Assembly (NCBI RefSeq): GCF_037392515.1
Contig: NC_090285.1
Coordinates: 4,529,501 to 4,593,500, forward strand
Source: Haliotis asinina
Taxonomy: Eukaryota > Mollusca > Gastropoda > Lepetellida > Haliotidae
Reading direction: 5' to 3'
Length of the DNA: 64,000 nt
Below, in pieces: positions 9,101-63,542 of the stretch (the first letter of the stretch is position 1; each line of letters starts with the position of its first letter). Made by a program: the position numbers and the translations under genes. Under the pieces are notes generated by a model. It saw only the letters and a program-made list of their open reading frames with translations, did no database searches and was not told the origin of the DNA.

Positions 9101-12100
9101 TTTGTGGAGAGATCTGTGTCAGTGACCTGAATATTTTGTAAGACCCTCAGATGACTAAGTAGTAGCTGTTGTCTGATTGGTTAAATCTATTTAACCGTCT
9201 CACGTATGATTGGACAGTCATAGGTCGATCAATGGTTACCTGGCGCGACCTTCTACCAGGGTTTGTTAGGCTCACTGGTGGAGTGTAACCAATAACACTG
9301 AGAATGATTAAATTATTGAATCCCAAGCACAGAAGAATTAAAAGTAAGTCCTAAGCATGGAATAACTGATTTATTTAGACTTAGTTTACTTAGACTGGTA
9401 TTTTCATACAGGTTGCATGTTAATTTACCTCTTACAGGGACATTAGCATACCATTAGCTAAGACATCAATATATCAGGGTTAAGTTGTCTAAAGGGGCTT
9501 ACTTTTTGAGTTTCATTTCACCAATAATCTCCATCTTCCTGTCCCAGTTGTCCACAGAAAGCTTGTGCCTCAGGATTACTAGGTCAGCTGGAATAATGCA
9601 TAGAGAAATGTTATGAAATCATCACAGTTGTGTTTGTGTTATACTGACACCAGCATGACAGCTGATCTTTTGAAAAAGACAAGTTTCTGAAAGTTGAAAT
9701 ACCATAAAAACAGATATTTCATATTTACTATTCACATCACAGACATGTTTTAAGAAGGAAGATCAAACTGTTACATAGACATGTTAAAGCAAGGCATCCC
9801 ACCATACAGATATAAGATGCCAGGGAATCCCCAGCAACTATACAGATATGCTACATCAGGAAATCCCCAGCAACTATACAGATATGCTACATCAAGAAAT
9901 CCCCAGCAACTATACTAATATGAGACACCAGGAAGTCCCCAGCAACGACACAGATATGAGACACCAGGGAATCCCCAGCAAATATACACACATGCTACAT
10001 CAGGAAATCCCCAGCAACTATACAGAAAATCATATGAAACACCAGGTAATCCCCAGCAACAATACACATATGCTACATCAGGAAATCTACAGCAACTATA
10101 CAGACATGAGACACCAGGGAATGGCCAGCAACCATGCATATATGCTACACCAGGACTCCCCAGCAACTATACAGATATGAGATACTAGGCAATCCCCAGC
10201 AACTATACGAGACACCAGGGAATCCCCAGCAACTATACAGATATGCTACATTAGGAAATCCCCAGCAACTATACAGATATATAGACATGTTATAGCAAGG
10301 AATCCCCAGCAGATATATAGACACGACATGTTACAAAAAGGAATCCTCTGCAACCACATAGCCCTGCCAACTTGATTTACCTGTGGTTAATTCATACACA
10401 TTGAAGGGGTTGTGTGGGAGAGTAAATCCATATTCTATGAAGAGCTCATCATTGCTGTAAGGGTTGTAGTGGATAAAAACCTGGTCATATTTCTGGTACT
10501 CATCAGCTGTAACAATCTCATATCGACCGCTTTCCTCATTCACCCTGGCCTCCACCTGTAGCTTAGAAACAAACAGGACCAACTCTGTAATTCAGATAAC
10601 GGGAAGCAAAGATATTCTGATTCAACATGCAGTTTAGATTTAGATGAGTTGTGTGTCAGTTTCTTTAATTTCTTTTGTTTTCCTTAGCACGTTTTTACTC
10701 TTAATATTTTCATCTGCTATGGGTTATCCTTCCACTATACTCACGGAAATTAACAAGGGAACACATGAAATTCAAGTGTTCCTTTGTTCTATTCCAGGTT
10801 TTTTCTCATGATAAGAATTGCACTGTTGGTGAAATTCTAGAAATAAATACAGCAACACTTGTACATTAATGTGTTCCCTTATTTATTTCTGTGAGTATAT
10901 TTCAGATGAACTCTGACCTTTGCTTCTGCGGAATGATTCAGCAGGTCGAGGTACGGAGCTAATGCGACATTTGTTTCTCTCTCCATCAGTGACAGGTATG
11001 GGGACTCCTGTATCTTCACATACACAGACCGGGTATTAACAACACACCAGGCCCAGCGGAATCTTTCATATGTAAAAGCCTTAAAATCAGAAACATGTTT
11101 TTGCAGGAAATCCCTAATACTTGCAAAAATATCTTGAACTCTTGTCTGTTCAGAGATGGATCTCACATACACACTGGGTGGAAGCCTTTCCAACTCTTGC
11201 CTTGTGAAGTACAGTGGTGTGCTAAATGTAGATGGTAGGGTCTGGATGTAGGGGTACCAGGATGAAGTGGTGCCCTTCTCCCACTCCCACACCAGGAAGA
11301 TGGACAGGACTCTCTGGGGGCTCAGCGGTGGAACACATCTGAAGAGGAAACACATATTACATCGAAGAGTTAGGGTCGATTAAGCATAGGTTGTTTATCC
11401 ACATGTAAAAACTGAAAACAACCACTTTTAGTAACTTTTTTTCTGAACAAACTGTTTCAGCAGATTAAACAGAAATATGTGACAAATGAAATCCTACAAC
11501 TGCATATGCTAGAGTTGGATTCTGAAAACTTGAAATAACTAATTAGTACTTCGGTTGGTTCCATGTCTGGAAATAAATCTTTCAGAGGAATTAATATGTG
11601 TTGTCAAAATGCTGGAGGAAAGCTGACTTAGATGACTGACAAGTGCTTTGACAGGACTGTCCTATGGCCTGAGAGTTGTCTCCCCTTAACATGTTGATGT
11701 CTGCTTATGAGCTTGACAAAGCTTCATACAACGAGAGTATGATGACTTCTTGTTGATGTTATGGACACCCATACAAACTTATCCAAAAACAGAGCTGATG
11801 CGCAAGCATAGTGTCACATAAAACAGTTTGTATTTTACATTTTACTGAGGGAAGCAATCTTTAATACATAACATACTAAGTTTATTACATATTCTTGGTG
11901 TTCTTTGTTCCCCAACGCATACAGCATAAGTACCTGAACAACATTGTCAGTTGTGTGTGCATGCAAGGGTAAGTGCTATTGTGTTTTCATATTTCCTTCT
12001 CATTCCTATTCAAACGTTGAATGCGCACACTCATATATAAAATATTTGTTTCACGACTTGTCAATTAATTGGCTCAAAACTCTTCAACTCGGACATCATC

Positions 12101-32100: not shown

Positions 32101-35100
32101 ACAGATTCTGATACCTTAAGGTATGCACTTACCGAAACAAATCATGGAAAGTGCCAATTCAACCTTTAAAGTTGAAAAAATGCGATGAAAAGTATGAGAT
32201 CGTGAGCAGTAGTCTAATCTTGGTTGTGTAAACAAACAACTAAATAATCTGCTCGTTACATAAAAACTTGTTGATTGTGGTAAGCAGCCTCTGTCACAGA
32301 GAAAGCTCAATGTCTGACTTATTGACACCTGTATGTCTGCCTGCCTGTCTGCTAAAGACAACATGCAGTACACAGCTTCAATCATTGACCACATGCAATT
32401 TGAACTTAACACACATTGGTCTATATGCCATAAACAAGATAAATTGATTTATGACTCGTGCACCCGAGTCCAGTCTCTACCAGATTATGTAATTAGGCAG
32501 GTGTGACACTTGTACACATGACAAGTTTTTATGTCTGTGGGTTGCAAACAAACTACATTTTCTCAGATGACTGGATTGGACGGAAACTGGTGCAAACTCT
32601 TCTAAGTTTCAAGTCCTGCTTTGTACTTGGACGAATGACAGTTTCCAGTCATGCAGTAGTTCACCATCTCTTCTGAGATGATATTTGATCCAACTCAAAT
32701 TCAGAGAAGGTGTATTTAGAAAACCCAAAATCTCTATATAAATTCTCTATAGAGAACAACTTCTTCTAGTGTATAAGGTTTTGTTTGACAATGGTATATG
32801 AATCCATACTGAAACGATGCATCAAGTACAATAAAAGAAGTGGTTATCCATTAAGAATCTTGCCCATCAAACAGATCATCTTTCCGTACACACATTGAGC
32901 CCTTAGCAGATCAGCAAATGAAACAGCCAATGGGAAGCCGTCGTTACACTTGAGTGCACATCCACCCGCTATGACTGGGTTCGGTCTCCCAAGGACTTCT
33001 TTTCGAGGGAAGTAAGCCCAAGTACAAAATATCGCACTTTTCAATCGGGATTGAACGATTATAATTTTGTTTATTTGTTTTTTAACAAGCAGCAGTGTAT
33101 ATTATATGTCATGAATAAGTGATAATTGTGTTTTAATTATGTTTGATTTTTTGGTTGCACATGACCTTTCACAATATCAGCCCTATGGTCATCTTGGAAT
33201 TTGTAGTCATTGTAGTCACACACCCATGGGCCACAAATCTGTTTCAGGTATGCTAATGTAGGGGTTAAAAAATCCCATCGCTTGATGCCTGGGACAAGTC
33301 AGTTTTCATTTCGGACAATCAAATAATGGTATCTTACTTGTCCGTGGACTACTAGATAATTTTCGCTTGTGGTTTCAAAATGCAAATAATCTTGGATTTC
33401 ATTTCTTATCTGCTCATAATGAAGCTTTTAAAGTTAGCGCTAATAATAACATAGAGCTGGAAGAGAGTGAAATTATCATCACGCATTGTGTCATAAAATC
33501 AGGGCAAGTGGAAAATTAGTCAAGACAAGTTACTGTCTTGAAGTCACTTGCCCTGTCGCAAGTGGCTTTTCAAAATATTTTTGAACCCCTGTATTGTATT
33601 TTTGACAACATTTATGTTACTTTCAACACAGGTCTGATACTGAGATACATGCATGTTACACATCCCCAACTCATAACTTTTATGGTGAATTCTAAACTAG
33701 TTTTAGTCTCTTTATGGCTGCAGTATTGCCGATGTGACTTCAATTCTTTTTCATAGAGATCGTCTTTGGGGTACATTTTCTGCTGCCGGAAAATGTCAGG
33801 TGACAGTTGTATCAATATTTTGAAAAAATATTGTACAATAAAGAAAAAGTCTCTTTTGCTCATGATATGGCCCCTCACCACATGGAGTCACCCCTCTGCC
33901 GCGCGTGCGCAGACAACCAGGTAAGCATCCAAGCCCGTATCATCATTCCTTCTGCTGTCACCATACTGTTAAAGACGTGTGTGTTGGAAAGAAGTTAAAA
34001 CTACGTTCAACTCTATGTGTACTGTGTAGATGTCTGAGTCTTCCTCGACTGTATGTATGGTTTATTCGTTCGTTAATAGGAAAACAGAACGTTTATTTAA
34101 ACCTGGAGTTGAATTGTTTGTCTGTGACTTTTGTGTTGCACAGGCTTTCCTGTGGGTTGCGCACGTGTTGCTTCCCCATGGCGGGAAGTTGACGCCCTTG
34201 CGTGTTGAAATATTGCGTTTAGTACCAATTAGTTCATGTCGTGGGTATCCATGTAGTTTTCAATGTTTTTAATGTGTTAATTATGTGCTGCTGTTTTGGC
34301 GGTCAGCTTATGCTTGGCATATTGGCTTTCAGGCTTTTACGATGTGTTCCACTTGTGGTACAAACATCCCTCCACAAGACAAGCATGACAAATGTCTGTG
34401 GGGCGGATCGCCGGGCTCTGCTCGCTCAGCTAGCCTGGAGATGTCTGTCGATCCGGAGCCTTTGGCTTCAGGTCCGGACGCCTCGGCTACCCCGGAGAGG
34501 GAGGGTTCGCTCCTAGTCCCTCTCTGGGTCTTGGCGCAGGATAAATTGAGGATTCCGGGGTTTCCGGTCTCTGCCCCACCCCTCCCCATGAGAGTGGAGG
34601 ACTCGGTTTCATCTGAACTTCTTCTTGCATCTCGGGACCAGGGTTTGGATGGTATTTCGGTGACTTGGGTGGAAGGTGCCTTCGGCTCTTCCTTCCCCGC
34701 TGTGGTTCGTTCAATCATCCACTGGGTCTGGGTGTGGATCCTCCTTTAGAGAGGATTCCGGCTCGGCCTTGGGATCAGAGATCAAGGCTATGGACACACT
34801 GGTCTATATGCCATTAAACCATGACTGTTTTGTTTCAGTTCGTAGTCTAACCAACCCAGATAGTAGTTAGACTACGACCGGGACTACTTTTTAAATGTCT
34901 GCTTTCATGTTGGAATCTGACAGCTTTACGTCACATCGACGTCACTTATAGTCATCCAACCAAAAGTAGGCGCAGATTGTTGCAATTGAAAATGTCTTAT
35001 GAAACAATAGGAAAAAACAGCAGTGCATAATTGTTCCATAAGACCTTTTTCCAACAATCTGCGCCTACTTTTGGTTGGATGGTTGTAACTGGCAAACGCC

Positions 35101-38100: not shown

Positions 38101-41100
38101 TCGTTCGTTAATAGGAAAACAGAACGTTTATTTAAACCTGGAGTTGAATTGTTTGTCTGTGACTTTTGTGTTGCGCAGGCTTTCCTGTGGGTTGCGCACG
38201 TGTTGCTTCCCCATGGCGGGAAGTTGACGCCCTTGCGTGTTGAAATATTGCGTTTAGTACCAATTAGTTCATGTCGTGGGTATCCATGTAGTTTTCAATG
38301 TTTTTAATGTGTTAATTATGTGCTGCTGTTTTGGCGGTCAGCTTATGCTTGGCATATTGGCTTTCAGGCTTTTACGATGTGTTCCACTTGTGGTACAAAC
38401 ATCCCTCCACAAGACAAGCATGACAAATGTCTGTGGGGCGGATCGCCGGGCTCTGCTCGCTCAGCTAGCCTGGAGATGTCTGTCGATCCGGAGCCTTTGG
38501 CTTCAGGTCCGGACGCCTCGGCTACCCCGGAGAGGGAGGGTTCGCCCCTAGTCCCTCTCTGGGTCTTGGCGCAGGGTAAATTGAGGATTCCGGGGTTTCC
38601 GGTCTCTGCCCCACCCCTCCCCATGAGAGTGGAGGACTCGGTTTCATCTGAACTTCTTCTTGCATCTCGGGACCAGGGTTTGGATGGTATTTCGGTGACT
38701 TGGGTGGAAGGTGCCTTCGGCTCTTCCTTCCCCGCTGTGGTTCGTTCAATCATCCACTGGGTCTGGGTGTGGATCCTCCTTTAGAGAGGATTCCGGCTCG
38801 GCCTTGGGATCGGAGATCAAGGCTATGGACGTTGGGGAGGTTTAGAAGTCCGAGGGAGCTTTCCACTTTTCCTCAGCCTTGAAGAGGTGCGTCAACATAT
38901 CGCACAGGCTATTCGCCAGGCAGCAGTCCTGACTAGCCGTCTGGTCTCGGCTGAGTTCTGCCTGCCGGACGTGGCGTTTGCCCCTAGGCAACCCACGCAG
39001 ACACAGCTCTGCATTCTCCCTTCCTGGCTGCGGGATGTGATGGATCCCCTCCTTGCTGGTACCTGCCAGTGCTTTGATTTACCAGAGCTGGTTTGGCGCT
39101 ACCAGCTGGGTGAGAATTGTCTTTTCCAGGTACCGCTTGTGGATGAGTGTGTGTTTACTTCAGTCGCCCTCGGGGGAGGCTTGGCTTCCTCGGGTGCAGC
39201 TCTGGCTGCCAAACAACAGCGTTTAGTTCCGCCTTTTGCCCAGTCGGGTGCCCCTCTGCGGCAGGCATACCGGACCTATGAGGAGATCTATCGAAATGCC
39301 ATGCAGCAGGTTTTAAAAAAGTAATTTAGGTAGCCAATAATGAGCAATCAGTCAATGCATTGGCGGTTAATCCTTTGAAAGAAGGGTGTTGTTTTTACAT
39401 AGACACAGACACGACAGAGTGTGTTCAGTATAGATTAGTAAATGTACATACATAATCACTACTTTTGACAAATCCCCCATTCAAATCCGCATAGAAGTAA
39501 TTAATCAATCAGTGTGTTATCGGTTAATCCTTTGATCGATCCAGACACAAGAAATTCCAAATGGAGACCCTTTTGGGGTAATCTAAGTGGCGTCACCTCT
39601 AATTATACCTGTAATAAATTCATTTACTGAGCATCAAGTGAAAGATGACAAATAATGTGTAGGTTTATAACACCTAACATGGATTACAACCCAGCGACAC
39701 CACATGATTTTGACAGAATCGTCTATGAAAACAAGGGTTGTAACTTGGAAACTACGCAAAGCAGGAGACAAAACTAAATGATAGTAGATTGTGAGAACAT
39801 AGAGCTTTCATTTTTCACAACAGCTGTTGTGATTCAGGTTTGCACGAACCTGTAAATGAAATAGTTTAAGCCCTGAAATGTAGATGAATTCTGCATAGAC
39901 CCTCATAGCTATACCTACTATTACGTCACGGAGACACGTCACTCTGACTGGTTGAAATTTTGTTTGCGGCTGAGAATTGTGCACAGTTGTCAAAAAGGTC
40001 AATTGAAAGTAATTAAAGATCGTAATGAGCCGTTTTAATGACGGGCTGGAGCAGCCGCGGGTTTCTTGCCCCCACGCTCCTGTAGTGAGTTCTTCTTCTG
40101 TGACGCAGCCTACGTCTGAGTTTGCCGGCTCGCTTCAGCCACTTTTCAGGAGTAAGAAGAGTAGTTGTGCAAAAAATCCGCAATAGATCATGTAACCACG
40201 GCGAGGGAACAGGCAGGATTTTACTCCACATGCTTCCTCGTTCCAAAGAAGGATGGTGGGTTCCGTCCTATTTTCAACCTCAAGGAGTTGAACTGGTTGA
40301 TAGAAGTTCAATCCTTCCAGATGGAGACACTTCGCTCGGCATCTCCGCAGCCCCAAAGGTGTTCACCAAACTCATGATAGTGCTGGCTACTCTAGCCAGC
40401 TCGCAAGGAAGGCGTTGTCACCCTTACCTGGACGACTGGTTGCTCAGTTCGCTATCTCAACCAGCGAGTATAGATTCTACTTACGCAGTGATAGATACTC
40501 TAGATCGGCTCAACCTCAAGAAGTCCGACCTGGTACCCACCCAGGACTTGGTCTTTCTGAGGGCGAGGCTCACAACACATCAGGGTCTTTGTCACCCGAC
40601 TGGGTCAGGAGAGTACGGGAGATTGTGTCTTCCTTCCTCTCGCAGCCGCGGGCACCTGCACGAACTTGGCTTCGTCTCTTGGGTCACAAGGCGGAGACCG
40701 TCTCTGTAGTATGGCGGGCGCGGTTGCGGATGCGCCCCATACAGCAAGCTTTGGCGAGTCTGTGGGCCCTCTCAGAGGACCTGGAGAAGTGTCTCACAGT
40801 TCCCGGGTGGTTGTCTCCTCACTTTCAGTGGTGGACCGATGTCGGGAATCTCTCCAAGGGGGTCCATGTTAACAGCTGAATGGAAATAGCCGATAGACAT
40901 GGATCGCCGGATTCAAGCATTACCAGCTTGATACGCACTCACATGAGAGAGTGCACTCTGGCCGTACTGTTCATTCCAGTGGACAGTGTCATGCCACCGT
41001 GGCCGAGTGAGTCTTGGTTGATTGTCAGTTGACGCTGCTGGTTACTGCGTATAAGTGCATGTCTCCACTGTTGACGTATCCCACGACTGAGATCTTTTGC

Positions 41101-57923: not shown

Positions 57924-58569
57924 CTATCCAAACCAATGCTGGCCTTGACAGTCACGGTCCCACACCTTGTTGCACACCCAGCACCAGTCCTCCCCACACC
58001 GTGGACACAGCATGTGCATACAACCGCCTGTAACACAGGGTCACACACACAGGGTCACACAGTGTCACAGATCATGCTTCTTCACGATGATAATTGGGAG
58101 AGAGGTAACTGACCTACTCCCACACTCCAACACCACAGCTACCAGAAAACCTTCAGAATCTGTTTGATTTAGTGGTCAATAGCTAGAGCATGATGCAATG
58201 CTACTCTTTCAGATGAAAAAAATATATCTTCCATTCTACGTTATAGAACTTACCATAAGCCATGGAAACCTGTTCTGCCCCAGAATCCAATATGGCATGA
58301 TAAGATGACCTCTTGAAGATTATTTCCACTGTGCTTTTGTTATCGGTATTAAGCTAATATGAGATCACTAAATATTCTTCTCCATGGTAAATGTGAACTG
58401 CCTAACAGTTGGTTTGAATTTCCAGTATAGATGTCTGAGATCCAGACTAACCGTTTCTCTCTGTCCTTGTGCCACACTTGGGACAGGGTTTGGTGGTGCG
58501 GTCTATTAGGGTCCGAGACTGGTCCTCCCACCGAGACCGGTCAGCCTGGAACGGGTCCACCGAGTAGTC
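57924..58569 (-). CDS. PRKN: Parkin REP linker and catalytic RING2 exons
   Basis: The exon at 58569-58452 carries the repressor helix (DRSRWEDQSRTLIDRTTK) and PCPKC. The last exon carries NGGCMHMLCPRCGEDWCWVC and RDCQGQHW. The cysteine after GG takes ubiquitin from the E2 before passing it to substrate. RING2 keeps all its metal ligands. The end is HWFG, one residue shorter than the human HWFDV. Confidence 0.94.
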
Positions 58570-61500
58570 CTGGACAGACAGTCACCAAATACTGAATAAT
58601 TCCTCAACACCACAGTCATGACTACTGCACACCCTATACAAATGGTTAGATATCATGTACTGTGAATGTTATCACAAACTTGCATTGAAAGAGAGAGACA
58701 CACGCCTGAACCACCATCTGGGTCTGCCTATAAATCAGTGTTGTTTGTTTCTATAAGACAAGAGTGTATCAGAGTTGAGCATAAAAGCAGGACTAAAACT
58801 AAAACCAGGAAGGGGGTCTGATTTTATGAAAATGTCCTGTCACTGGAATTATTCTCACTGTCACTTACCTGGGCTGAAAGTCGAAGGAGAGGATTGTCAT
58901 CACATGGCCCCTCATGGTACTCGTTCTTGCAGTCACGACAAAATGTCATCTGTAACACCAGAGGATGGAAGACACAGTAAGTGGGTAACTGGGTGTGAGT
59001 GAGTGAGTGAGTAAGTAAGTGAGTTCAAGTAATATTCTACTTAACATAAAGTCAGTCAGGAAAGTGAGTGGGTGGGTGGGTGAGTGAGTAAGAGAGTTGA
59101 AGTAATATTCTAGCTAACATAAAGTCAGTCAGGAAAGTGAGTGGGTGGGTGAGTGAGTAAGAGAGTTGAAGTAATATTCTAGCTAACATAAAGTCAGTCG
59201 GGAAAGTGAGTGGGTGGGTGAGTGAGTCAGTGAGTGAGTGAGTTGTTGTAACATTTCAGCTATATCATGGCAAAAGACATGAGAAATGAGACTCACATAA
59301 TGTACCTACGTCAAGCTGAAAGCTGATAAAAAGTCAGGAAAGCAGTTCCTGAAATGATGTACTGTCCATGACATTGTAACAATTTCCTTGTTGTTCAGTT
59401 AAAACTCTGACAACACCTGGTACATACCACTGTTGTCTGACATTTTGCACAACTTGTTTCTGCATCAAGGAAAACAGCTGTACTAAAAACCTTATCATCA
59501 GTTAGGACATGACATGTTTACCATGCAGTCCTTGGCAACACAGGTAACTTTCCTCCCGGCTGTGTCAAGGACAAAGCCCATCCCACATCCTGGTCCTGGA
59601 CACAAGACGCCGCCATCTTGTAGTACATACTCCTCTGCAGCGAATGTGTTGAACCGTTCATACTGCAACATTCATAAACATTTTCATAAGATAATGGTGA
59701 AATGAAAATTTTAATCACTTGCTTTCTGCTACAGCAAGCCATGTCAGAAACCGACCCACTACATTTCCCGTCTCCATGTGAGGCATCTGGGTTAGATCCA
59801 CACTCCATCCTTGATTACCCTGATGGTCTACAATTGGTCCCTAGCACTCCATGCTTCTCCTCTCCCCAGTGAGGATTCCACATCAGAATAAGTACCCAGT
59901 ACCCATCACACAGGCACAATGACCTCCTCTCACCCAGGGAACACAAATCCTCTCAACCAGTTAACACAAACCCTCTCAACCAGGTAACATGAACCCTCTC
60001 ACCCAAGTAACAGAGACCACTCTCAACCAGGTAACATGAACCCTCTCACCCAAGTAACAGAGACCACTCTCAACCAGGTAACATGAACCTCTCTGACCTA
60101 GGTAACATGAACCACTCTCATCCAGGTAACACAAAGCCCTCTCCTGAAAATTTTCGGCCAGACAGTTGGTCTGGTAATTTTGAAAAGTTCCAAATCAGTG
60201 GAAAATTGCCTGGACAGAAGTTTTGGGGTTAAGATGAATAATAATAAGGTTAAAAAGAAGAGATTTCTTTTCAGTCAAGACTTTAGTCATAATACTCAAA
60301 GTCAGATTCATCATCAGGCATGCAACTCGTTAAATCTGACCGTCCGGTCGCAAAAGAGACCATCCTGGACAGTCAGGCAGGCAGGAGTTTGCAACATTTC
60401 TCTAATTCAGGTAACAGAATCCCCTTTCAGCCTGGTAACATAAGAAACCCTCTCACTTAAATAACATAAAAAAGCTTCTCAGCTTCTCACCTGCTCGTCT
60501 CCCAGTAAGTGGAAGTGGTGGCTTTCCTGGATCTCCGAGCTCGGACAGCCAGCTGAAATAAACCAGGTCTAATACAACATCTGGTTACAGCTAGTCTGGT
60601 GGAGAGGATCATACATTTATTTGGTCAAGAAAATAGCTAATGTACTCAAAATTTCACTTTGCTAGCACAGTGTGGCAAGGTGCATCAACGTTTCTACCGT
60701 TTACTTACCAGTATCTTGTCTCTGCTGTTAACTAACCTAGCTAAGGCATGGTGTGATTATCCCTGAATGTTTTACTAACCTAGCCATGGCAGGGTGTGGT
60801 TAGCCATGAATGTTTTACTAACTTACCTAAGGCAGAGTGTGGTTAGCCATGAATGTTTCACTAAACTAGCCAAGGCATGGTGTGGTTAGCCCTGAATGTT
60901 TTACTAACCTAGCCAAGGCAGGGTGTGGTTAGCCCTGAATGTTTTACTAACCTAGCCAAGGCATGGTGTGGTTATCCCTGAATGTTTCACTAACCTAGCC
61001 AAGGCAGAGTGTGGTTATCCCTGAATGTTTTACTAACCTAGCCAAGGCAGGGTGTGGTTAGCCATGAATGTTTTACTAACTTACCTAAGGCAGAGTGTGG
61101 TTAGCCCTGAATGTTTCACTAACCTAGCCAAGGCATGGTGTGGTTAGCCCTGAATGTTTTACTAACCTAGCCAAGGCAGGGTGTGGTTAGCCCTGAATGT
61201 TTTACTAACCTAGCCAAGGCAGGGTGTGGTTATCCCTGAATGTTTCACTAACCTAGCCAAGGCAGAGTGTGGCTATCCCTGAATGTTTCACTAACCTAGC
61301 CAAGGCAGAGTGTGGCTATCCCTGAATGTTTCACTAACCTAGCCAAGGCAGGGTTTGGTTAGCAATGAATGTTTTACTAACTTACCTAAGGCAGAGTGTG
61401 GTTAGCCCTGAATGTTTTACTAACCTAGCCAAGGCATGGCGTGGTTAGCCCTGAATGTTTCACTAACCTGGGCAAGGCAGGGTGTGGTTAGCCATGAATG

Positions 61501-63542
61501 TTTCACTAACCTGGGCAAGGCATGGTGTGGTTAGCCCTGAATGTTTCACTAACCTGGGTAAGGTAGAGTGTGGTTAGCTCTGAATGTTTCACTAACCTAG
61601 CCAAGGCATGGTGTGGTTAGCCCTGAATGTTTCACTAACCTGGGCAAGGCAGGGTGTATCCATACTCTGGGTGCTTGATGAACCTGCGTTCACTCAACTG
61701 GGTGATTCCATACACCCTGAAGCATTCAATACACATCACATGTCCCGACTCACAGGGGAACACAAGCACTGGAGATCTGAAGAAGTATTTCCATATTAAA
61801 CATCATAATCAAACGAAGGAAAACTGTTTAACTGTCAAACACTGCACCCAGCAATATCCCTGCTGTACTACAGTTGTCTGTCCAGACTAGATAAACCAAC
61901 TGTGGATAATGAGAACAACGATCTAAGTTGCCAGTGTATGATGAACATCATCAACAAAGTCCTTCAATTGGACCAGCCTCCCACCACCAGTTTCGGCTGC
62001 AAAGGGACTCGATCCATGTGTGTACCCTCACCATTGACAGATCTTGCATTCCAGTACGTTTTGAAAATAATGTATTAGATGTTGGGTGGCATGAAAATGC
62101 GACTTCCAATTATTGTTGGAACTGAGCAATAGTTCTGAACAGCTTCTGACCTGCCTCACATGTAACACCTTAACCACAGGTTAGAAGTCATGACATAACA
62201 AATTAACTATAGTATTAGGTACTAGAATGAATTTTAAGCTCTTTGACTCCTTTTGAGCATATATTGAAACAAATTTGCAAACAATGATTTTAAAGTATTC
62301 TGAAAATACCATCCCGGCCATGATTTAAACCCAGTTACCTCACATCTGCACAGGTAATGCACTCAACCTCACGTCTGTTCGGTCGTACATGTCGCAGAAC
62401 AGCAGCCGATATGCCATCAGGGTGGGACTTGCCACATTTGAACACAAATTCCTGAAATGATATCATGAACACAGACATGTTGCCACGTAATCTACAGAAG
62501 CTGCTGGAACACAAAACTGAATCTATCTTCCTTAACATGGTCCATTTAGCTGTGTAATAACCAACTGACTATCAGGAACATCTCCTAGAATATGCTCAGT
62601 CAAAGGGACTCTTCAGATATAGTAACCTGACCAGCCAGTCAAGTCATTTGTTATCCTGACATTTCAATTACACATGTAACTAAATGAACAAAACCTCACA
62701 CTAATGTATACTGATCCCACAAACACAGATGAGGAAGGTCATCTTTAAGAAAATGAAAATTCATATTCAGGTCTGCACTTTCCGTTTCATTTCATGACCT
62801 TCAGCTTCAGAGTAACCTGAAGTAAGGCGAGGGTCATGCCATGAGGTGGTAAGACTGAAAAAAACTTTCCAGAAATCCTTGAGGTCTTGTAGAAGCTATT
62901 GAATATATAAGACCAGTATATGGATGTCAAGTTGTTCTTCAATGTATAACACAATGTTGCTGGGCTACTTCTGGCCCCTTCCTCAGGTGACTGAAGAATG
63001 GGCAAATAACAGTCCACAAATATTACATTACACAATAAAGAAAAGAAGTCGTCATCCACATACTGGTCTTATATTTCCAGAAATCACTTACAGCAGCTGT
63101 CCCTTCACAACCGTCATTCCGACACTCCCCGCCCATGCACCTTGACTGCAGAACATCGCTCCAGCCCTCGGGGTCCTGCAATAAAGTATAGTATTCGGAC
63201 AATCTCCTTAAAAGGCTATGATTTTCAGCTCTAAGCTCACACACATTTAATCCATGTTCAATAAAACACAGAGCAACTGATGGGATTGTCAAAACTTTCA
63301 TTATTAAATTCTGAAAAGAATCACCAACATTTTTGGTGAGGACCTGTTCTAACATGAATTTTTTACTAGAAAGATTCCTTTCACAAATGTTTCTGAAAAC
63401 ACATATTCTGTACTTACCCTGCTCAGAACAAAAGCCCCATCTTGGCACATGGCACACTTGACTCTGAGCTTGCCGGGCTGTATAGATCGACATTCTTTAC
63501 AGTATACATAGTACTGGTTCTTCAGCTCCCTTTCCTCATTTA
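57924..63542 (-). CDS. PRKN: Parkin, RBR E3 ubiquitin ligase (RING0 to C-terminus, 9 exons; 5' part outside)
   Basis: Parkin is the RING-between-RING ligase activated by PINK1 on damaged mitochondria. Exons on the - strand: 63542-63418, 63175-63092, 62451-62339, 61776-61640, 60552-60491, 59662-59522, 58949-58869, 58569-58452, 58027-57924. Phases all agree, giving about 321 residues, close to human 141-465. In order: RING0 with YYVYCKECRSIQPGKLRVKC and VFKCG; RING1 with ECITCADVR, CESGHVMCIECF and LPCPAGC; IBR with LCPGPGC and FCRDCKNEYHEGPC; the REP helix with SRWEDQSR, keeping the Trp that blocks RING1; RING2 with PCPKC, the catalytic Cys in NGGCMHM, and a C-terminal QHWFG. All zinc ligands in RING1, IBR and RING2 appear present. 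The UBL exons lie past the right edge. The intron after exon 61640 is filled by an exon-derived minisatellite. Confidence 0.95.
58985..59250. repeat. About 70-bp tandem repeat, three to four units, with (GTGA)n
   Basis: Units read AGAGAGTTGAAGTAATATTC then TAGCTAACATAAAGTCAGTC plus GTGAGTGGGTGGGTGAG. It lies in the parkin intron between exons 59662-59522 and 58949-58869, close to the acceptor of the latter. Confidence 0.88.
59940..60135. repeat. About 30-bp minisatellite in parkin intron
   Basis: Units read CTCTCAACCAGGTAACATGA plus ACC with small changes, six or seven times. Confidence 0.85.
60733..61666 (-). repeat. 43-bp minisatellite made from a parkin exon end and its splice donor
   Basis: Read on the - strand, each unit is ACACCCTGCCTTGCCCAG, the last 18 bases of exon 61776-61640, followed by 25 bases starting GTTAGTGAAACATTCAGGGC, the first bases of the intron. 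About 21 units follow without a gap. Units nearest the exon keep CCCAG/GTTAGTG; more distant ones have GGCTAG/GTTAGT. It fills most of the intron before the next exon (60552). Confidence 0.93.

Follow-up and report, generated by a model that had tools for sequence, protein, structure and literature searches.

The right end of the analysed window, a 64-kb stretch of a 1.14-Gb genome that we searched in 159 contigs, is occupied by a parkin gene on the minus strand, with exons that can be followed from RING0 through to the stop codon. The joined pieces match the Pfam models zf-RING_14 (1.5e-39) and zf-RING_12 (1.1e-27) as well as the IBR models, so that the RING0, RING1 and IBR domains of parkin type are present, and the gene looks intact. 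An N-terminal ubiquitin-like domain would be encoded further upstream, near the window end or past it. The translation of the exon that carries part of RING1 (61776-61640) matched 24 distinct solved sequences at E values up to 0.01. The best two of them (3.7e-15 and 5e-15) bear the name RBR-type E3 ubiquitin transferase; from 2e-14 onwards there are chains called parkin. A query of three parkin exons gave three matches in the genome, all of them at this locus.

The RING1 exon and the one that follows it are both open, and joining them in frame yields GYTLPCP-A-GCPSSE, which fixes the donor at 61640. GYTLPCP, encoded by the exon end, is common to the solved relatives and belongs to the conserved coding sequence of parkin. 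The lengths of the two exons, 137 and 62 nt, are presumably those of human parkin exons 7 and 8, which together with the in-frame junction points to an old intron between them. Elsewhere in the window, a minus-strand open frame at 10879-11379 resembles, by eye, a SET-domain methyltransferase. Two near-identical open frames of 158 aa are located 4 kb apart on the plus strand (34273-34749 and 38308-38784); they and their neighbouring frames resemble genes of mobile elements, also by eye.

This intron is largely made up of one tandem array, which takes up 909 of its 1087 nt. TRF reported the array at 60731-61657 with a period of 43 bp, 21.6 copies, 89% matches and 0% indels, and its score of 1406 is the highest among the 36 rows obtained for the window. 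With 21.6 head-to-tail copies of 43 bp, it is a minisatellite by the usual definition, which asks for units of about 10-100 bp. The units are numbered in register, beginning at exon base 61640, with unit 0 as the real boundary and units 1-20 as the complete copies. In this register each unit is composed of the final 18 coding bases of the exon and the initial 25 bases of the intron. Both this composition and the roughly 21-fold multiplication had been proposed in the original prediction, and TRF and the register layout bear them out, although its array end at 61666 lies nine bases too far into the exon; the similarity stops at 61657. Unit 21 is partial and retains the 18 exon-derived bases, GTTAGT and a few more bases before it diverges. 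The mean difference between units is 4.7 of 43 positions, and unit 4 matches unit 0 at all 43. The features are collected in Table 1.

Table 1. Positions of the parkin exons, the minisatellite and the donor-like sites in the window (U1 pairing in kcal/mol).
Feature	Positions	Strand	Basis
Parkin exon, 137 nt, RING1 part; final 18 bases common with the array unit	61640..61776	-	Translation matches and reading frame
Authentic donor CAG/GTTAGT, last exon base 61640	61634..61642	-	In-frame junction PCP-A-GCP; U1 pairing -9.0
43-bp minisatellite: unit 0 (real boundary, 61657-61615), 20 complete copies and 1 partial	60731..61657	-	TRF; units in register
Units 2, 3 and 4, sole full copies with CCCAG; donors equal to the real one by U1 pairing	61443..61571	-	Register layout, U1 pairing
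Putative decoy TAG/GTAAGT, unit 6	61380..61388	-	U1 pairing -10.5
Putative decoy TAG/GTAAGT, unit 13	61079..61087	-	U1 pairing -10.5
Unit 18 donor position, GT lost (TAG/TTTAGT)	60860..60868	-	Register layout; U1 pairing -1.5
Putative decoy TAG/GTAAGT, unit 19	60821..60829	-	U1 pairing -10.5
Donor-like CTG/GTAAGT just past the array	60703..60711	-	U1 pairing -10.7
Next parkin exon, 62 nt, acceptor TTTCAG/CT	60491..60552	-	Open frame, in-frame junction

The array appears to have grown out of the real exon-intron boundary, as had been predicted, and this origin is well supported by the conserved exon end, the 18-base match in register and a probe that finds this array alone. Two differences separate the last 18 bases of the exon and the units 1-20 consensus, and with uniform bases the chance of two mismatches or fewer in one fixed register is 2e-8. 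The best match of the consensus 18-mer elsewhere in the window, on both strands, has five mismatches and occurs at three places. Upstream of these 18 bases, no similarity between exon and unit was seen by eye. The exon bases must be older than the array, since they encode the conserved parkin residues GYTLPCP. A probe of 131 array bases gave ten matches in the genome, all ten inside the array, in a search that skips very common words, and on this result an origin from a dispersed repeat was rejected.

The cysteine at the exon end (codon TGC), which we take to be a zinc ligand, shows how exon and array have gone separate ways. The corresponding position reads TGG in 14 of the 21 copies, TAG in four, TGC in two and TAC in one; the array copies have drifted at this codon and the exon has not. 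Variable columns make up 11 of the 18 exon-derived positions versus 7 of the 25 intron-derived ones (Fisher p 0.059). Several units have identical partners that are not adjacent (0/4, 9/15, 10/11/17 and 13/19), and mismatches between units drop to 3.4 and 3.7 at lags of 6 and 7, compared with 4.4-5.2 for the remaining lags, taken up to 11. Together these two observations show block-wise turnover within the array.

A gradient, in which the units nearest to the exon would be the most exon-like, had also been predicted and was rejected. The correlation with distance is not significant, whether computed on the exon-derived 18 bases (21 units; Spearman rho 0.22, p 0.34) or on all 43 bases (20 full units; rho 0.33, p 0.15). 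Some features favour it: the mean mismatch to the exon end is 2.2 in units 1-5 versus 3.4 in units 6-21, and of the 20 full copies only the neighbouring units 2-4 have kept CCCAG (chance 0.0035, in a test picked post hoc). However, unit 1, the nearest of all to the exon, is of the majority GCTAG type.

The exon ends in CCCAG/GTTAGT, and AG/GTTAGT is retained in 17 of the 21 copies, preceded by C in three and by T in 14. The original prediction that every unit carries a CAG/GTTAGT-like donor thus stands for these 17, but not for the rest: units 6, 13 and 19 read AA/GTTAGT in register and have gained a TAG/GTAAGT 4 nt upstream, and one further copy has lost its GT. Pairing with U1 was computed against 11 bases of its 5' end and is only a rough guide to donor use. 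By this measure units 2-4 (-9.0 kcal/mol) equal the real donor, 13 copies reach -7.4 or -8.2 kcal/mol, and unit 21 reaches -6.6. Units 6, 13 and 19 fall to -3.3 in register and rise to -10.5 at the shifted TAG/GTAAGT, which would make the shifted sites the strongest decoys within the array. Six further donors of parkin within the window range from -5.3 to -12.9, one of them likewise starting with GTTAGT, and 32 of the 3797 minus-strand GT sites outside the array in the window reach -9.0. The complementarity to U1 supports the predicted display of a row of putative donors. The original prediction had not mentioned the three GTAAGT decoys, nor the AG/GT geometry, by which a 3' and a 5' site would coincide. 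Conservation specific to the donor is unsupported across the copies, as columns +8 to +16 vary no more than columns +2 to +6.

If a copy replaced the real donor in splicing, parkin would be truncated. In the frame of the exon, the intron starts as G/GT TAG and gives a stop one codon past the junction. The extended product therefore ends in PCPG-stop, as translated for n = 1, 2, 3 and 21 units, and extensions of any n begin alike. The original prediction expected extensions by 43n bases to preserve the frame only where three divides n; this rule is irrelevant because the in-frame TAG stops every extension first. Stops are present in each of the three frames of the 43-nt unit. Extension by one to three units would result in exons of 180-266 nt, and exons of this size are ordinary, so exon definition need not bar such extensions.

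We consider it probable that the array is a minisatellite born at the boundary, mainly a tolerated passenger, with the true donor used most of the time. A tandem duplication of the parkin exon-intron boundary would have founded it, and amplification and reshuffling by unequal exchange or slippage may then have enlarged it to most of the intron. The spliceosome would mostly pick the exon's own donor, and occasional, presumably rare, use of a copy would yield a transcript with the early stop, to be degraded or translated into a parkin cut within RING1. The established part of this explanation is formed by the anatomy of the array, its match to the exon, the single genomic place at which it was found, the stop codon and the donor-like U1 pairing. 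The observation behind the original prediction is confirmed, and its interpretation is partly supported. Counting against a mere passenger, three copies match the real donor in U1 pairing and three shifted sites exceed it. The partial last copy also counts against this explanation, being unlike the remnant of a simple whole-unit duplication.

A different role would follow if the copies were dual-specific AG/GT sites and the array an error-tolerant tract for recursive splicing. Splicing from the exon donor could reach the AG in one of the copies, where a donor would be formed anew. Alternatively, a second splicing step in an extended transcript could run from 61640 to the terminal AG of the extension and so restore the exact junction. 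AGGT is present in 20 of the 21 copies (17 in register and three shifted), and most units have a branch-like CTAAC about 20 nt before AG/GT. The pattern CTAAC-N(12-25)-YAGGTNAGT occurs 14 times in the window against 0.06 expected, and all 14 occurrences are inside the array; they are copies of one ancestor, however, and hence not independent. In the usual register the extension forms a GT...AG segment in 18 of the 21 copies, and extensions to the three shifted sites, with lengths of 254, 555 and 813 nt, likewise start with GT and end with AG, but this geometry results automatically from copying an AG/GT donor, and the donor bases are not specially kept. We regard the dual-site reading as improbable.

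Human introns and the UBC array do make use of dual AGGT sites (PMC10809524), a precedent that makes self-correction possible in the parkin array without being evidence for it. Mistaken use of a downstream copy would then leave a GT...AG segment that might be spliced out again to the exact junction, which we think doubtful in this gene. If true, such correction would explain how a conserved gene tolerates about 20 truncating decoy donors, and it predicts intermediates in steps of 43n in nascent RNA that are absent from mature RNA.

The array might also act as a regulated switch, in which the choice of a copy adds the early stop and lowers parkin output via nonsense-mediated decay. The position of the stop, one codon past the junction, and the presence of strong decoys by U1 pairing fit such a switch. 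The donor hexamer in the copies is without sign of selection, however, and GT has been lost in one of 21, and we hold this role to be unlikely. The copies are read from a single assembly, and their number or order could in principle be an artefact; this is very unlikely for an array of 0.93 kb that sits within a 71.8-Mb contig and has units so different from one another (4.7 of 43 positions on average). Least credible of all is an older array that overwrote the exon end, for which the identity of units 0 and 4 leaves room for exchange, but which conflicts with an exon end encoding the GYTLPCP of the solved relatives and with an array probe that matches no other genomic place.

Tandem arrays are frequent in this genome, which favours the passenger reading. 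We surveyed 60 loci (30 kinase and 30 kinesin matches) with TRF, and arrays cover 13,994 of the 208,788 sampled bases. A total of 73 rows with a period of at least 10 and at least two copies were obtained, several describing the same array, and three of them (L021, L057 and L067) lie no more than 60 nt from the match. None of the rows with a period of at least 20 shares 12 nt or more with the match and its 20-nt flanks; the longest shared stretch is 11 nt (L067). The survey is small and its power is low, as a single open frame contains the whole domain in most of the 30 kinase matches and the limits of the matched stretches are domain or exon edges. The parkin array is the only boundary-derived one in this small, low-powered sample. 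One sampled array of 59 bp x 13 (L057:1730-2498) starts 23 nt past a kinesin exon match, near the donor, and shares no exon sequence. A tandem cluster of seven protein kinase frames (Pkinase 225.5-226.7 bits) was noticed within 17 kb on another stretch of the genome (G000 C5:13406869-13423781).

Within the window itself, TRF gave 35 rows with a period of at least 10, the parkin array included. Each of the other 34 has at most 10 nt in common with the interior of the eight tested parkin exons, versus 13 nt for the array consensus. When 20-nt flanks are added, the repeat at 58033-58061 shares 16 nt and the array consensus 22, in a comparison for which the last parkin exon was placed one base too high. 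The 16 nt are reached because this repeat adjoins the last parkin exon in the intron; it is 29 bp long, with a 14-bp unit present about twice, and lies beside the acceptor of that exon. The following parkin introns hold arrays at 58995-59239 (units of about 70-73 bp) and 59926-60143 (units of 24/47 bp), which share at most 8 nt with the parkin exons tested.

Turri, Cuin and Porter reportedly described in 1995 (Nucleic Acids Res 23:1854) a minisatellite with multiple splice donors in the human gene G1P3/IFI6 (6-16). Two downstream repeat units of G1P3/IFI6 are reported to serve as donors and to give protein isoforms (PMC4526556). The parkin array is similar in that donor-bearing minisatellite units adjoin the authentic exon-intron junction, but its copies are candidate donors only, and extension leads to an immediate stop rather than to isoforms. 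Human UBC has a tandem array of dual-specific AGGT splice sites (PMC10809524). As in UBC, the tandem units in parkin carry AG/GT, a potential donor or acceptor, in 20 of 21 copies; unlike the 228-nt UBC units, which are coding and keep the frame, the parkin unit is 43 nt long and intronic, with stops in three frames. It does not keep the frame, 43 not being a multiple of 3, and the second codon is already a stop.

Introns are also described to be gained when AGGT segments are duplicated in tandem, as in the Rogers model, ATP2A1, the 24-bp repeats of fission yeast and the potato RdRp (PMC4974935). In parkin a duplicated AGGT segment likewise yields paired GT and AG, but the segment straddles the 5' end of an apparently pre-existing intron and no new intron is evident. 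An abalone TSSK1-like gene contains a 27-bp intronic minisatellite, which resembles the parkin array as a short-unit intronic array in an invertebrate gene and differs in that the accessible text describes no link to splice sites (PMC6905558). The parkin array belongs to a known phenomenon, here in a conserved gene and with one predictable outcome of extension. Among the titles and abstract openings listed, from a literature with subscription journals mostly outside it, neither parkin nor any mollusc was found to have a donor array born at an exon boundary.

The parkin array amounts to a natural competition test, in which one exon is followed by about 20 similar downstream donors in fixed steps of 43 nt. 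A few of the competing donors equal or exceed the real one by U1 pairing, and extension to any of them would bring the same early stop. The choice of the spliceosome among near-identical donors, and the reversibility of its errors, thereby become testable. The array may also be viewed as a store of defective templates beside the codon of the presumed zinc ligand: 19 of the 21 copies lack the cysteine codon, so that exchange between exon and array would usually be damaging.
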